The position numbers and the translations under genes were made by a program. DNA of 17,187 nucleotides from Oscillospiraceae bacterium (GTDB lineage: Bacteria > Bacillota > Clostridia > Oscillospirales > Oscillospiraceae): NCBI GenBank assembly GCA_017458025.1, contig JAFTGG010000191.1, positions 1-17,187 on the forward strand, given 5' to 3'. The notes beneath the pieces were generated by a model. That model was not told the origin of the DNA, searched no databases, and saw only the letters and a program-made list of their open reading frames with translations. This document shows positions 9,088 through 12,849 of the stretch, piece by piece. Position 1 is the first letter of the stretch. Every line of letters starts with the position of its first letter.

Positions 9088-9771
9088 ATGGCGACCGCGT
9101 TTGTGCGTACCATTTTATTATACTTTGTGTTGATCGTCGGCATTCGCGCGATGGGGAAGCGGCAGATCGGCGAGCTGGAGCCCATCGAGCTGGTGCTGAT
9201 GCTGCTTATCTCCGACCTTGCCGCCGTGCCGATGCAGGATTTCGGCATCCCGCTGCTCAACGGCGTGGTGCCGATCGTCACGCTGCTGGCGCTGAGCATG
9301 CTGCTCTCGTTCTTTTCCATGCGGAGCGTCCGCTTCCATCGGCTCGTGTGCGGCAACCCGACGACGCTCATCAAGGACGGCGCGATCCAGCAGGACGCGA
9401 TGCGCCGCAACCGCTTCACGCTCGACGAGCTGCTCGAGGAGCTGCGCGCCCAGAGCGTGACCGACCTCACGACGGTCAAGTACGCGGTGCTCGAAACGAA
9501 CGGGCAGCTTTCGGTGATGCTCTATGCCGACGCCGCGCCCGCGACGCCGCGGCAGCTCGGAAAGCCGGTGAAGGACGACGTGTTTATTCCCGTCGTGCTC
9601 GTCAACGACGGGCGCGTGCTGAAAAACGGCCTGAAGGATAAGGGCCTCGACGAGGCGTGGCTCGACAAAACGCTCCGCGCCCACGGCTTTCGCAGCGCGC
9701 ACGAGGTGCTGCTGCTGACAATCGACGGCGCGGGCAAGGTGCTGTGCGTCGGAAAGGACGGCGGGCGATGA
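9088..9771 (+). CDS. DUF421 (YetF-like) membrane protein
   Basis: Membrane protein of the DUF421/YetF family. Three N-terminal hydrophobic segments (about 4-20, 30-48, 58-76) enclose the conserved GKRQIGELEPIELVLMLLIS block. The soluble alpha/beta part follows, with PTTLIKDG, the RFTLDELLEELR stretch, a TVKYAVLETNGQLSV strand and the late LKNGLKDKGL block. The length of 227 residues is typical. The frame is open back to 8881, but ATG 9088 has AAGGGAGG upstream and begins at the first helix. Relatives in Bacillus spores (YetF, YdfS and DUF421/DUF1657 '2Duf' proteins) influence inner membrane permeability and germination, so a spore role is possible but not shown here. It overlaps the DUF4363 gene by 4 bp. 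Confidence 0.88.
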   Translation: MATAFVRTILLYFVLIVGIRAMGKRQIGELEPIELVLMLLISDLAAVPMQDFGIPLLNGVVPIVTLLALSMLLSFFSMRSVRFHRLVCGNPTTLIKDGAIQQDAMRRNRFTLDELLEELRAQSVTDLTTVKYAVLETNGQLSVMLYADAAPATPRQLGKPVKDDVFIPVVLVNDGRVLKNGLKDKGLDEAWLDKTLRAHGFRSAHEVLLLTIDGAGKVLCVGKDGGR

Positions 9772-10148
9772 AATATTTTTGGATCCCCGCCGCGATCCTG
9801 GCGGCGCTGGTGGCCGCGTCGCTCTGGAACGCGCGGCAGGTGGAGGCGGACATCACGCCGTGGCGCGAGGCGGCCGGGTACGCCATCGACGCGGCGGAGC
9901 GCGGCGGCTGGGACGCCGCGCTGGACGCCGTGCGCGAGACGCGGGACGACTGGTACGCGCATCATTCGTATTTTCACATCGTCATCGCCCACGACGAGCT
10001 GGACAAGGTGGACGCGCTGTTCGCCGAGGCGGAGAGCTTTGCCGTTGAGCGCGACATGGGCGAGTTCCGCGCCGAGATGTCGGAGCTGATCGTGCAGCTC
10101 GGTATCCTTGCGGAGACGCAGAAGCTGACGATACGAAACGTGTTATAA
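9768..10148 (+). CDS. DUF4363 family protein
   Basis: Conserved protein of unknown function, often found beside DUF421 genes in clostridia. The 126 residues start with one hydrophobic segment (about 4-20, MKYFWIPAAILAALVAAS), an uncleaved anchor or signal, followed by an all-helical soluble part. The soluble part includes WYAHHSYFHIVIAHDELDKV and ends with MSELIVQLGILAETQKLTIRNVL. The start codon is in the ATGA overlap with DUF421, so the two are translationally coupled and probably act together at the membrane. Its 3' end is exceptional: parts of it recur twice downstream (10485-10527 and 10847-11054), each beside an XRE repressor gene. Confidence 0.85.
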   Translation: MKYFWIPAAILAALVAASLWNARQVEADITPWREAAGYAIDAAERGGWDAALDAVRETRDDWYAHHSYFHIVIAHDELDKVDALFAEAESFAVERDMGEFRAEMSELIVQLGILAETQKLTIRNVL

Positions 10149-10175
10149 AAGGTCAGCCTTGCGGCTGACCTTTTT
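10133..10175 (+). repeat. 43-bp direct repeat, copy A
   Basis: Covers the last 16 bases of the DUF4363 gene plus the following terminator. It is identical over 43 bp to 10485-10527. Confidence 0.95.
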
Positions 10176-10176
10176 T
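10151..10176 (+). terminator. Bidirectional terminator between DUF4363 and the first XRE gene
   Basis: GGTCAGCC, TTGC loop, GGCTGACC, then six T; four A precede the stem, so it could also act on the minus strand. The C-terminal QPQG codons and stop of the convergent XRE gene are encoded inside the stem. Confidence 0.85.
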
Positions 10177-10389
10177 CTTTGGATATGCTTTGGCAACATC
10201 GGTTAAATCAAGCAGGTAATCGGTGCTCACATGGTAATAGTTGGCAAGTTTTATCAAAACTTCAGTCGGAATATCGCGTTTTCCGGTTTCATAATTGCTG
10301 TAACAAGCTTGACTACAGCATAAATAATCGGCAATATCCTGTTGGTGCAGATCGCTGTCCTCGCGCAAATCCCGAATGCGATGATACAC
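10153..10389 (-). CDS. XRE-family transcriptional regulator (first of three)
   Basis: Small Cro/CI-type helix-turn-helix protein of 78 residues, expected to bind DNA as a dimer and act as a repressor. The HTH spans about residues 4-60: IRDLREDSDLHQQDIADYL, then the recognition region CCSQACYSNYETGKRDIP, then LIKLANYYHVSTDYLLDLTD. The start is GTG at 10389, with AGAGGG seven bases upstream. The tail KKKGQPQG is encoded by the terminator hairpin shared with DUF4363. The gene is clearly more AT-rich than its neighbours, suggesting acquisition. Near-identical 14-bp repeats upstream (10433-10471) are candidate autoregulatory operators. There is no toxin, integrase or phage gene beside it. Confidence 0.85.
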   Translation of the reverse strand: MYHRIRDLREDSDLHQQDIADYLCCSQACYSNYETGKRDIPTEVLIKLANYYHVSTDYLLDLTDVAKAYPKKKGQPQG

Positions 10390-10432
10390 TCCATAACCCT
10401 CTTTGCAATAAGCTTATGGAGAGTATATGCAA

Positions 10433-10471
10433 AACAAAATGTTATATTGACATATATAACAAAACGTTATA
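10433..10471. promoter_or_regulatory. Direct-repeat operator upstream of the first XRE gene
   Basis: AACAAAATGTTATA (10433-10446) and AACAAAACGTTATA (10458-10471) match at 13 of 14 bases, 25 bp apart. They lie upstream of a minus-strand -10-like TATACT (10427-10422). A plus-strand TTGACA (10447-10452) followed after 17 bases by TAAACT (10470-10475) is also present and would read only about 45 bases before the next terminator. Confidence 0.5.
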
Positions 10472-10484
10472 AACTCGACGAAAC

Positions 10485-10527
10485 ACGAAACGTGTTATAA
10501 AAGGTCAGCCTTGCGGCTGACCTTTTT
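10485..10527 (+). repeat. 43-bp direct repeat, copy B, with terminator
   Basis: Second copy of the DUF4363 3' tip plus terminator (stem 10503-10510/10515-10522, TTGC loop, five T). It has no gene on its left and serves as the 3' boundary of the second XRE gene. Confidence 0.95.
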
Positions 10528-10768
10528 CAATCCCTTTTGGATATGGCTGCGGCTGATCGGTGCGTCCGACCAAGTAATCCAATGAAACATGATATTGGTC
10601 GGCAATCCTTACTAAAATTTCCAACTTGGGCTCACGCGTTTTCAGTTCATAGTTTTGGTATGTCTTTTCCGTAATGTTGCAGTATGTGGCAATCTGCCAT
10701 TGTTTAAGCCCAGCCTCTTTTCTGCATTGCTTTAGCCGTCTTGCCAAAATTTCTTTCAAATTTATCAC
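10505..10768 (-). CDS. XRE-family transcriptional regulator (second of three)
   Basis: Cro/CI-type HTH protein of 87 residues, probably a dimeric repressor. The HTH occupies about 7-68: LARRLKQCRKEAGLKQWQIA, then TYCNITEKTYQNYELKTREP, then LVRIADQYHVSLDYLVGRTD. The end, IEKGQPQG, repeats the tail of the first XRE protein because both are encoded by the same duplicated terminator, although the domains differ in sequence. The start is uncertain: GTG 10768, or TTG 10759 with AGGTG about six bases upstream. Three ACAATTGT-like sites lie just upstream (10771-10830), suggesting autoregulation and control of the divergent plus-strand promoter. AT-rich composition suggests acquisition. Confidence 0.83.
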   Translation of the reverse strand: MINLKEILARRLKQCRKEAGLKQWQIATYCNITEKTYQNYELKTREPKLEILVRIADQYHVSLDYLVGRTDQPQPYPKGIEKGQPQG

Positions 10769-10770
10769 CT

Positions 10771-10830
10771 ACAATTGTTCTTGACAAGACAATTGTGAGG
10801 GATTAGGATAGAAAATATACTAACAATCGT
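10771..10830. promoter_or_regulatory. Operator array and divergent promoter at the second XRE gene
   Basis: The 8-bp palindrome ACAATTGT occurs at 10771-10778 and 10789-10796, with a variant ACAATCGT at 10823-10830. A plus-strand promoter with perfect TTGACA (10781-10786), 17-base spacer and TAGGAT (10804-10809) contains one palindrome in its spacer, the layout of a repressor-controlled promoter. It reads into the DUF4363 fragment. Confidence 0.55.
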
Positions 10831-10846
10831 TGGCGTATAAAAATAA

Positions 10847-11054
10847 AGACGCGGGACGGTACGCGCACCATTCGTATTTTCACATCGTCATCGCCCACGA
10901 CGAGCTGGACAAGGTGGACGCGCTGTTCGCGGAGGCGGAGAGCTTTGCCGTTGAGCGCGACATGGGCGAGTTCCGCGCCGAGATGTCGGAGCTGATCGTG
11001 CAGCTCGGTATCCTTGTGGAGACGCAGAAGCTGACGATACGAAACGTACTGTAA
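10847..11054 (+). pseudogene. Duplicated 3' fragment of the DUF4363 gene
   Basis: Copy of 9937-10148, encoding the C-terminal half (YAHHSYFHIV to the stop). At the left junction the copy lacks four bases (ACTG, 9949-9952). From there to the stop, six substitutions occur in 194 bases; five are silent and one gives Ala to Val near the end. That pattern is typical of two functional alleles, not of a decaying pseudogene, so the fragment probably derives from a gene recently under selection. A TTG-initiated frame at 10830 could express a 74-residue piece without the membrane anchor, but it has no ribosome binding site. It is followed by its own terminator and the third XRE gene. Confidence 0.9.
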
Positions 11055-11057
11055 AAA

Positions 11058-11088
11058 CCTGCAAGCCCTTGCGGGCTTGCAGGTTTTT
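11058..11088 (+). terminator. Terminator between DUF4363 fragment and the third XRE gene
   Basis: CCTGCAAGCCC, TTGC loop, GGGCTTGCAGG (11-bp perfect stem) then five T; five A precede it. It has the same position and loop as the terminator at 10151 but a different stem sequence. Confidence 0.88.
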
Positions 11089-11296
11089 AATCGCTTTCAT
11101 CTTCGATATATTCTACGATATCTCCCACTTGGCAATGAAGGATTTTGCAGAACATCTCTATCGTATGTGTGGTGACGCTTTCATTTCGCTTTAATCTTGT
11201 GATTTGAGCAGGGCTGATATGATATTGATGAATAAGCGCGTATATAGTAATGCCGCGTTCTTTCATTACAACCCATAAATTGTTATATGAAATCAT
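11087..11296 (-). CDS. XRE-family transcriptional regulator (third of three)
   Basis: Compact Cro/CI-type HTH protein of 69 residues, of a kind common in clostridial mobile regions. It reads MISYNNLWVVMKERGITIYA, then LIHQYHISPAQITRLKRNES (HTH), then IEMFCKILHCQVGDIVEYI with an acidic end, EDESD. The ATG at 11296 has AAAGGG ten bases upstream; TTG 11305 is in frame but sits too close to that site. The stop overlaps the terminator T-tract. It differs in subfamily from the first two XRE proteins, so the three are not simple tandem copies. Repeated TTAACC motifs in the divergent spacer (11325-11374) are candidate binding sites. Confidence 0.83.
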   Translation of the reverse strand: MISYNNLWVVMKERGITIYALIHQYHISPAQITRLKRNESVTTHTIEMFCKILHCQVGDIVEYIEDESD

Positions 11297-11317
11297 AACA
11301 TTCAAGCCCTTTCATAC

Positions 11318-11374
11318 TTGAATGTTAACCGAAATTAGTGTACATTAATATTAACCAATATCGGTTAATATTAA
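11318..11374. promoter_or_regulatory. Divergent promoter with 12-bp inverted-repeat operator
   Basis: TTGAAT (11318-11323), 17 bases, TACATT (11341-11346) is a modest plus-strand promoter. TTAATATTAACC (11345-11356) and GGTTAATATTAA (11363-11374) form a perfect inverted repeat with a 6-base gap; a further TTAACC is at 11325. The right arm touches the AAGGAGGT ribosome binding site of the next gene, so control could be by repressor, by RNA hairpin, or both. Confidence 0.55.
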
Positions 11375-11385
11375 GGAGGTGCGTT

Positions 11386-11844
11386 ATGGCAGACTATAAA
11401 AAGATGTACCATGAGCTGCTGATCGGCTCGGAGCAGGCCATCGCGGCGATAGACGAGGGGAGGCCGGACACAGCGAGGCAGCGCCTGATTATCGCGGAGC
11501 ACCGCGCGGAAGAAACCTATGCCGCGACGGACGATAACGGCGAGGCGGAGGAAAGCGAGGAGGACCGCTTCGCAAAAATCATGGCGTCGTTCGAGCGGCT
11601 CACCGAGGAGGAGCGGCGGGCGCTGCGGTGGGTTTCGGAACACTATGAAATCCTACGGAAAATCACCGTGGGGGAGCCGCTCACGGCGGGGGAGATGGGC
11701 GCGCTGATCGAAGCGACTATGGATTACGGAGTTTACCCGTTGTTTTTTATCCATACGCGCAAGACCGAGCTGGACGAGACGATCGCGCTGGCCGCCGCCC
11801 AAGAACGCGTGGCGCGGAGGGCCGCGGAACGGCAGAAGCAATAA
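11386..11844 (+). CDS. Hypothetical protein, divergent from the third XRE gene
   Basis: Function not recognised. The 152 residues are soluble and strongly helical. The N-terminal part, MADYKKMYHELLIGSEQAIA through RLIIAEHRAEETY, resembles short helical proteins common in clostridial prophage and accessory regions. An acidic linker follows (DDNGEAEESEEDRF), then a helical part (RFAKIMASFERLTEEERRAL) and a charged end. No signal peptide or transmembrane helix is seen; MDYGVYPLFFIH is one short hydrophobic patch. ATG 11386 is chosen because AAGGAGGT lies five bases upstream. It is probably the regulated partner of the third XRE protein, since they share the operator-containing spacer. GC content is like the core genome, unlike the repressor. 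Confidence 0.7.
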   Translation: MADYKKMYHELLIGSEQAIAAIDEGRPDTARQRLIIAEHRAEETYAATDDNGEAEESEEDRFAKIMASFERLTEEERRALRWVSEHYEILRKITVGEPLTAGEMGALIEATMDYGVYPLFFIHTRKTELDETIALAAAQERVARRAAERQKQ

Positions 11845-11845
11845 G

Positions 11846-11880
11846 CGGGCGCCCGGCAAATTGCCGGACGCCCGTTTATT
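11846..11880. terminator. Shared terminator between convergent genes
   Basis: CGGGCG-C-CCGGC and GCCGG-A-CGCCCG form an 11-bp stem with one internal mismatch, followed by TTTATT on the plus strand. It lies in the 34-bp gap between the hypothetical gene and the SprT-like gene. Confidence 0.75.
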
Positions 11881-12397
11881 ACAGATTTTCAATCGCGAAC
11901 CGGTGCCCCTTGCAGTGGGGGCAGGTACAGTACCGCGACGCGCCGCGCTCGACGAGGCGGAGCACCTTCGCCTTGCGCTTGTAGTCCCACGACGCGCCGC
12001 AGCCGAGGCAGCGCAGGCGGTAGTGATACGCTTCCGCGCGGCGGTTTCCGGCGTTGGGAAGCAGCGACGGATCGCAGCAGCGCTCGGGCGCGCAGCCGAC
12101 CTCGCGGCACGCGGCCTTCCATACCGCGTCATGCCCGTGCTTCTCGCGCGGGCGGCGCAGCTTCACGAGCGCGTGGGCGTACTCATGGCGGATCGTATCG
12201 TAGAACACGTCGTCCGCGGCGGCCATCACGAAGTCGGAAATCGTGACGCACTCGACGGCGTTCCCGACGTACTTGCAACTGCCGAGGCGCTTCGACGCGC
12301 GCGTGGAGACCCGAAGCGCGACCGCCCTCGTATCGACGCCGCAGAGCGTGTCGAGCCGGTCGTATTCGCGGCGGATATCGTCTAAGGTGTGGCTCAC
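11879..12397 (-). CDS. SprT-like zinc metalloprotein
   Basis: SprT-like domain protein: a zincin fold followed by a zinc ribbon, related to the Spartan protease family; the bacterial function is not established. Of 172 residues, the active-site helix has HEYAH at 71-75 with a likely third ligand in KHGHD (H87 or H89). The ribbon uses CLGCG (C130, C133) and CTCPHC (C157/C159, C162). The start is GTG at 12397, which overlaps the nrdR TGA as GTGA; the upstream open frame to 12760 is only the nrdR gene in another frame. Coupling to nrdR suggests a joint transcript, but no functional link is evident. Confidence 0.87.
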
Positions 12398-12849
12398 TTT
12401 TCGTCCATCAGCTTGTTCAGCTCGTGCATAAAGTCGTCGATGTTCTGGAAGTGGCGGTGCACGGAGGCAAAGCGGACATAGGCGACCTCGTCGATGGGGC
12501 GGAGCTTCGCCATGACCAGCTCGCCGACGTAGTCGCTGCTGATCTCGCGCTCCAGGGAGTTCTGGAGCGTCTGCTCGATCTCCTCGCTCATCTTTTCGAT
12601 CTGTTCGAGACCGACGCGGCGCTTCTCGCAGGCGCGGATCATGCTCGCCGTGACCTTTTCGCGGTCGAAGCTCTGGCGGCTGCCGTCCTTCTTGACGACG
12701 ATCATCGGCAGGCTCTCGACCGTCTCGTAGGTGGTGAAGCGCTTGGCGCAGCTCAGGCACTCGCGGCGGCGGCGGATGCTGCTGCCTTCCTCGGCGGGAC
12801 GGGAATCGACGACCTTACTCTCGCTGTGACCGCAGTAGGGACACTTCAT
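12394..12849 (-). CDS. nrdR: Transcriptional repressor NrdR
   Basis: Zinc-ribbon/ATP-cone repressor of ribonucleotide reductase genes that senses ATP/dATP. The 151 residues show the zinc ribbon CPYCGH...CLSC (C3, C6, C31, C34), the [17 protein letters not shown] block, and the ATP-cone from about 46 ([19 protein letters not shown]) through [16 protein letters not shown] 12849 is chosen over GTG 12858 because the protein normally begins MKCPYCG and AGAGGTG lies six bases upstream of the ATG. No ribonucleotide reductase gene is in the window, so its targets lie elsewhere. The SprT-like gene is coupled downstream. Confidence 0.96.

Follow-up and report, generated by a model that had tools for sequence, protein, structure and literature searches.

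How did three unlike regulator genes come to stand in a row behind one and the same gene, each converging on a copy of that gene's 3' end? The question is raised by a 17,187-nt stretch of DNA from an Oscillospiraceae bacterium (GCA_017458025.1, contig JAFTGG010000191.1; the whole stretch analyzed is called the window below), in which three minus-strand genes for XRE-type repressors lie downstream of an intact DUF4363 gene. An original prediction, made from the letters of the window, had described each XRE gene as facing a DUF4363 3' end copy with a terminator, and profile searches and repeat analysis confirm that layout. The array is real, exceeds what chance would produce, and has counterparts elsewhere. 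We read it, with a probability of about 0.5, as a repressor array that grew by stepwise stacking at a gene 3' end through one-sided homologous recombination, without a dedicated recombinase, combined with exchange of the repressor heads. The observations that favor this reading are the tails common to neighboring XRE genes in 7 of 18 pairs, the varying truncation points of the repeated gene ends, and the varying number and order of XRE genes at a second locus, behind queF. The features of the array are as follows.

9768..10148, plus strand: intact DUF4363 gene, the host gene whose 3' end is repeated (PF14276, E 1e-20)
10133..10175, plus strand: repeat copy 1, the last 16 nt of DUF4363 and terminator 1 (43-bp exact repeat; hairpin -19.0 kcal/mol)
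10153..10389, minus strand: XRE1 gene, stop codon within the terminator 1 hairpin (HTH_3, E 3.2e-13)
10390..10484, minus strand: P1, the XRE1 upstream region with palindromes TATAACGTTTTGTTATA and TGTTATATATGTCAATATAACA (sequence and palindrome scan), a putative operator
10485..10527, plus strand: repeat copy 2, 16 nt of the DUF4363 end and terminator 1 (43-bp exact repeat)
10505..10768, minus strand: XRE2 gene, its PYPK...KGQPQG tail uncommon in the XRE2 family (HTH_3, E 4e-12; tail counts)
10769..10847, minus strand: P2, the XRE2 upstream region with a paired motif, a candidate operator
10848..11054, plus strand: repeat copy 3, a 5'-truncated DUF4363 3' end of 207 nt (199 nt at 97%; alignment with a 4-nt deletion)
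11053..11091, plus strand: terminator 2, its stem unrelated to that of terminator 1 (hairpin -27.8 kcal/mol)
11087..11305, minus strand: XRE3 gene (HTH_26, E 4.1e-20)
11306..11385, no strand assigned: P3, a divergent region with the 30-nt palindrome TTAATATTAACCGATATTGGTTAATATTAA, a presumptive operator

The repeated DUF4363 ends are cut at different points, 16 nt in one copy versus 207 nt in the other. The inner direct repeat (10133-10175 and 10485-10527) is perfect, whereas the outer one (9952-10150 and 10858-11056) has diverged and has a different terminator; a 4-nt deletion lies just ahead of it, and over its 207 nt copy 3 differs from the DUF4363 end by six substitutions in addition to the deletion. 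DUF4363 lengths of 381, 18, and ~207 bp had been proposed for the three copies; the last of these stands, but the exact match in copy 2 spans 16 nt (10485-10500), not 18. Similarly, the TTGC-loop terminator thought to be common to all three is shared by copies 1 and 2, within the exact repeat, but copy 3 keeps only the loop, on an unrelated stem. Querying the organism's own assembly with positions 9900-11400 returned three matches, all of them in the window (the query itself, plus two short inverted hits caused by palindromes within it), and thus no copies of the window repeat elsewhere in that assembly.

The three repressors are AT-rich relative to their surroundings and belong to unlike subfamilies, as had been described. 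Profile matches above curated cut-offs assign XRE1 and XRE2 to HTH_3 and XRE3 to HTH_26; XRE1 and XRE2 are 43% identical; and the G+C content of the genes (43.5%, 43%, and 36% for XRE1, XRE2, and XRE3; 30-33% for their upstream regions) compares with 64-67% for DUF421, DUF4363, and SprT and 62% for the open reading frame ORF152, all introduced below. The further claim that only the target end is shared holds for the repeated gene end but is incomplete, as XRE1 and XRE2 also have their last coding bases in common: both frames stop at a TGA inside the terminator hairpin, and it is this position of the stop codon that gives them the common tail KGQPQG. The motifs of P1, P2, and P3 differ from one another. 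Each XRE protein probably controls its own unlike palindrome, so that the modules could coexist without cross-regulation.

The tail of XRE2 sets it apart from most of its own family, which comprises 934 database proteins, of which the best 120 were examined. Among the matches listed, a PYP tail is found in 6 of 119 XRE2 relatives, including the nearest ones (P0002-P0005, P0007), with PYSK or PYQK in two more; among the matches listed for XRE1, 111 of 119 relatives carry a YP tail. Judging from these counts, XRE2 is a mosaic. The paired motif of P2 recurs upstream of 22 of 28 XRE2-family loci, where inspection by eye often reveals a small divergent gene of varying kind. The family is widespread: 294 of 300 genomes of the bacterial family match at E 1e-3, although mostly distantly, and 15 foreign loci score above 89 bits. 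The divergent partners at loci L068-L096 include proteins with paired CxxC-like motifs, a MazE/AbrB type (PF04014, above cut-off), and an RHH-like type (below cut-off).

DUF4363 is present in 16 of the 18 genomes of the genus (own genome included), and the empty sites that the original prediction had anticipated in relatives are found at all 15 other loci: a profile search up to 1.5 kb on either side recovered no XRE gene at any of them (0/15). NrdR lies downstream of DUF4363 in 12 of the 15, with SprT between in eight and without it in four, and a different neighbor gene is found in the remaining three (L005, L006, L012). In the window, ~1.7 kb with three XRE genes separates DUF4363 from a SprT-like gene, beyond which NrdR follows, both on the minus strand. 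Because the other loci are free of XRE genes, the extra 1.7 kb is peculiar to the window species among those compared, the comparison being one of presence and absence between species of the genus. The stretch extends past 11305, where the array had been thought to end, to a plus-strand frame divergent from XRE3. The flanking features are as follows.

9088..9768, plus strand: DUF421 gene (YetF C-terminal domain), upstream neighbor (PF04239, E 9.1e-38)
11386..11844, plus strand: ORF152 (152 aa), divergent from XRE3 (over its first 50 aa similar to S, the small divergent protein found in other modules; 38% to one such S)
11845..11880, no strand assigned: terminator between ORF152 and SprT, the end of the extra stretch (hairpin -25.6 kcal/mol)
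11879..12400, minus strand: SprT-like gene, the usual next neighbor of DUF4363 (8/15 relatives) (PF10263, E 1.4e-10)

A search of 5.8 billion proteins at E 1e-3 identified one other relative of ORF152 (81%). Its cluster spans 4 contigs with 3 member sequences, whereas XRE1 and XRE2 occur in 2 contigs each; the difference might hint at strains without XRE1 and XRE2, or merely at broken contigs.

Different XRE genes at one gene 3' end, also anticipated by the original prediction, are observed behind queF in another genus (g53), where queF occurs in 4 of 17 genomes. The number of XRE genes behind it is three in G294, two and a remnant in G212, one in G319, and zero in G315, and their order differs: S-XREa, S-XREb, XREc in G294; S-XREb, an XRE tail remnant, S-XREa in G212; and S-XREc in G319, where the contig ends soon after. 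Behind both XREa and XREc of G294, the terminator of queF appears again together with an imperfect copy of the gene's last 16-20 nt. Two repeats at this locus (213 nt at 95% and 141 nt at 98%) span the end of queF with its terminator and S, as well as the XRE tail and its flank; promoters and heads are unlike, and S is ~95% identical between units whose heads differ.

Bracketed modules also occur, in one genome each, at msrA, rpsR, and cofE. In G292 (L243), rpsR is followed by a small divergent gene and an XRE gene, behind which a copy of the rpsR terminator stands (32 bp, one mismatch); at msrA (L090), a 41-bp repeat with one mismatch on both sides of the module likewise consists of the terminator alone; and at cofE (L093), a 29-bp repeat on either side is the gene end without its terminator. 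A 70-bp repeat flanks the module at another XRE gene (L080). The duplicated stretch is ~16-20 nt with terminator at queF, ~22-29 nt at cofE, and the terminator alone at rpsR and msrA. The rpsR gene is present in 34 of 41 genomes of G292's genus; of the 30 loci returned (for one of which, L252, only 312 nt downstream was covered), four have an XRE-like match downstream, namely G292, one clear other (64 bits), and two weak matches in longer frames. A similar XRE module stands beside msrA in three metagenome-assembled genomes (L085, L089, L090), with the duplicated terminator only in L090. Among 30 HTH loci of the organism's own genome, one tandem pair (L034/L036) carries a long exact repeat outside the window, of 87 bp, and three others carry repeats of 16-20 bp. 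The 87-bp repeat, on G000:C254 (L034, L036, L139), is common to two same-strand HTH genes.

Shared tails are not confined to the window. Identity over the last 36 nt of the XRE gene and the next 40 nt was compared between 18 adjacent same-strand pairs and 942 control pairs, and exceeds the 99th control percentile (0.64) in seven of the adjacent pairs: L145 (0.96), L135 (0.95), L136 (0.79), the window (0.78), L080 (0.71), L137 (0.70), and L111 (0.66). The other 11 do not exceed it. N-terminal protein identity in the seven tail-sharing pairs is 0.26-0.43 in five, 0.60 in L136, and 0.67 in L137. These pairs are not independent, with six of the 18 drawn from L135 and three from L145; L135-L138 had been chosen for two close XRE matches, and L145 and L146 after repeats were found in L106 and L110. 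Neighbors have common tails in L135, L136, and L137 but not in L138, and no shared tail is seen in one of the two L146 genes or in the other L145 pairs. At L135 (G103:C1:3500-9500), four XRE genes stand in a row, and a 348-bp repeat at 92.5% identity covers intergenic sequence and the XRE tail.

Stacking would proceed as follows. Incoming DNA from a relative with another XRE gene at the same gene end would pair over the gene, terminator, and XRE tail, and its other, unrelated end would be joined illegitimately inside the resident gene end. The host gene would thereby remain whole with the new XRE gene adjoining, while the old gene end, terminator, and XRE gene would be shifted outwards; such one-sided recombination would give the layout of the window without a trans-acting integrase. 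XRE3 would then be the oldest and XRE1 the youngest, an order consistent with how well each repeat is preserved. Once an array has grown, modules could be reordered and their operator-plus-HTH heads swapped by recombination between the arms that they share, of which one comprises the XRE tail, terminator, and gene end and the other the small divergent gene. We infer these donors, the illegitimate joining, the order of events, and the function of the modules from the repeats and comparisons described above.

Several observations weigh against this reading. Donors and intermediates are postulated, and the genomes compared belong to other species, with no strain among them that carries just one of the three XRE genes. 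One-sided joining alone leaves the bracketing by exact terminators at rpsR and msrA unexplained, likewise the two orientations; these terminator-only copies fit the stacking model poorly and leave room for recombination at hairpins, as discussed below. Since two G294 units have the same joint, that array would have had to grow by recombination between its repeats, not by one illegitimate joining after another. At 0.78, tail identity in the window lies below the largest control value (0.79). The presence of a ComEC homologue counts for the stacking reading, but ComEC is common (10 of 14 control genomes). Furthermore, repeats that bracket XRE genes are found in only 4 of 54 XRE loci not picked for repeats (L080, L090, L093, L243). 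Direct repeats of any kind are detected by blastn in 11 of the 54 versus 2 of 50 control windows (Fisher p 0.016), and exact repeats of at least 18 nt in 9 of 54 versus 3 of 50 (p 0.13), the control windows being shorter (mean 2.5 kb versus ~3.2 kb for XRE loci) and the blastn self-search having overlooked the known 87-bp repeat of L139. When 42 loci were compared with 492 mismatched pairs, four loci exceeded every mismatched pair; L106, with its known repeats, is not among them because these fell outside the compared stretches, and the L110 repeat derives from the next S gene. With statistics this weak, an enrichment is not established; individual loci do show genuine bracketing, but it is a minority pattern.

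Among other explanations, in-place tandem duplication of the unit of gene end, terminator, XRE gene, and promoter, with the XRE head of one copy afterwards replaced by gene conversion with a foreign XRE gene, is conceivable but rather unlikely. The two inner units are similar in size (352 and ~363 nt), the joint that recurs behind XREa and XREc in G294 and the near-identical S genes with unlike heads there are as this would predict, and L137 is a whole-gene tandem duplicate in both its tail and N-terminal identities. However, conversion of the XRE1 head would require homology beyond P1, where none is seen, and terminator 2, which belongs to the outer unit, bears no relation to terminator 1. 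Still more doubtful is an assembly artifact in which strain variants, each with another XRE gene, were joined end to end; we judge this very improbable. The assembly (2.0 Mb, 282 contigs, 89% complete) is probably a metagenome bin, in which variants could be so joined; but the longest exact repeat is only 85 bp, XRE1 and XRE2 are each found in two contigs (the window's included, although the second may stem from the same sample), and related layouts are present in other assemblies.

The original prediction had favored small cassettes that entered repeatedly at the DUF4363 3' end and restored the gene each time, as integrative elements do, with the help of something in trans or of host recombination; we weighed this as integration by a trans-acting recombinase. 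Elements that integrate at gene 3' ends leave the gene restored beside the insertion and its former end displaced to the far side. In part the analysis supports this: additions took place at the 3' end with the gene kept intact and older ends displaced outwards, the units lie between direct repeats of the gene end, and similar bracketing is found at queF and cofE. Unlike an attachment site, though, the repeat is not constant, being 43 bp and exact in one case and 199 nt at 97% with another terminator in the other, and it varies between loci as well; the duplicated stretch has no fixed length and, by eye, no common core. The common tails and terminators of neighbors are not accounted for by attachment sites alone. 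No recombinase was visible to the original prediction, and none was found among 17 window proteins scanned (a part of the window's genes) or the seven identified neighbor proteins of L090 and L093, although a trans-acting enzyme could be encoded elsewhere; three frames from L145 matched nothing and carry no weight here. A site-specific integrative element is thus not supported, and small elements of this kind appear improbable to us. We attach similarly little credence to terminator hairpins as the targets of a hairpin-recognizing enzyme that sometimes carries gene-end bases along. The terminator-only repeats at rpsR and msrA speak for such targets, as does the inclusion of terminators in the queF repeats and in copies 1 and 2 of the window; the cofE repeat, which lacks the terminator, and window copies 1 and 3, which have the gene end and not the terminator in common, speak against them. 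To our knowledge, no enzyme is known for recombination at hairpins of this kind. A broader version would see gene-end terminators as recombination sites for a widespread class of cassettes reduced to an autoregulated XRE gene and, in many cases, a small divergent gene. Clostridia would then carry arrays resembling those of integrons, with operator-plus-HTH heads swapped between arms that stay constant and each lineage building up a changing heteroimmune set of repressors; we consider this a long shot.

The stacking reading can be set against known systems. Temperate phages have heteroimmune immunity regions in which the repressor head varies jointly with its operator while the flanks stay common; the present array is chromosomal, in contrast, and several heads are stacked in one place. 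Integron cassettes are small units of unlike genes with similar hairpin 3' ends. Here, however, each XRE gene has an upstream region of its own, the hairpins are plain terminators, and no integron integrase was found among the scanned window proteins, which were not searched specifically for IntI. Integron cassette arrays are also mentioned by Kirchberger et al. (2017; PMC5361080), whose subject is arrays of orphan immunity genes of the type VI secretion system in Vibrio. By analogy, these displacement arrays are the nearest published case: they arise by sequential displacement, for which a process akin to homology-facilitated illegitimate recombination is proposed, with new genes entering at an anchored position, old ones moving outwards, and no integrase involved (PMC5361080). 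In Vibrio, additions are anchored in the region upstream of the effector, and immunity genes are retained; in the window, they are anchored at a gene 3' end and its terminator, small XRE repressors form the cargo, and neighbors have common tails. Features of such an array found here are old gene ends outside the new unit, variable truncation, and presence, absence, and order that vary among the four queF genomes. Homology-facilitated illegitimate recombination combines homology at one end with illegitimate joining at the other, as PMC3240628 sets out, and is discussed for small variable segments in PMC2884548; it was experimental in the former and is read from sequence alone here. A search of the open-access literature, judged by titles and the beginnings of abstracts, found no description of tandem XRE arrays.

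Searches for an origin and function of the module proteins yielded few matches. A phage or plasmid origin of XRE2 was considered and rejected: the query has no relatives in viral contigs; with the family alignment, 69 viral relatives were retrieved at up to 56% over short segments and 50% for the best full ones; and the 100 phage and 41 plasmid records matched are each below 60%. XRE1 may have a phage link, with four viral relatives at 35-46% and, with the alignment, five at 49-66%, the three best near contig ends. Membership in the RstR phage repressor family (NF041951) was dismissed for both (45.1 bits for XRE1 and 64.5 for XRE2, below the curated cut-off of 80), as was a known anti-phage defense function, since the PADLOC matches of XRE1 and XRE2 are confined to the HTH region, and PADLOC gave none for XRE3, ORF152, or S. 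No specific defense or toxin-antitoxin match was found for the module proteins, and no family above cut-off for S. One divergent protein matches DUF6809 below cut-off, a family for which no mention was found in the open-access literature.

The spread and diversification of small HTH regulators are mostly unexplained. Four genomes of one or two contigs in the same bacterial family contain 56-76 HTH_3 matches each. The loci compared here suggest a route, namely stacking at gene 3' ends with exchange of operator and head between common tails. If this is true, displacement arrays would extend beyond toxin immunity genes, the order of addition would be legible from truncated gene ends, and operator and head would be predicted to change together. 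Two XRE1-type proteins, P0122 and the product of G221:C1:165065-165454 (134 and 156 aa), seemingly contain two HTH domains in one frame and are possibly recombination products of tandem XRE genes.

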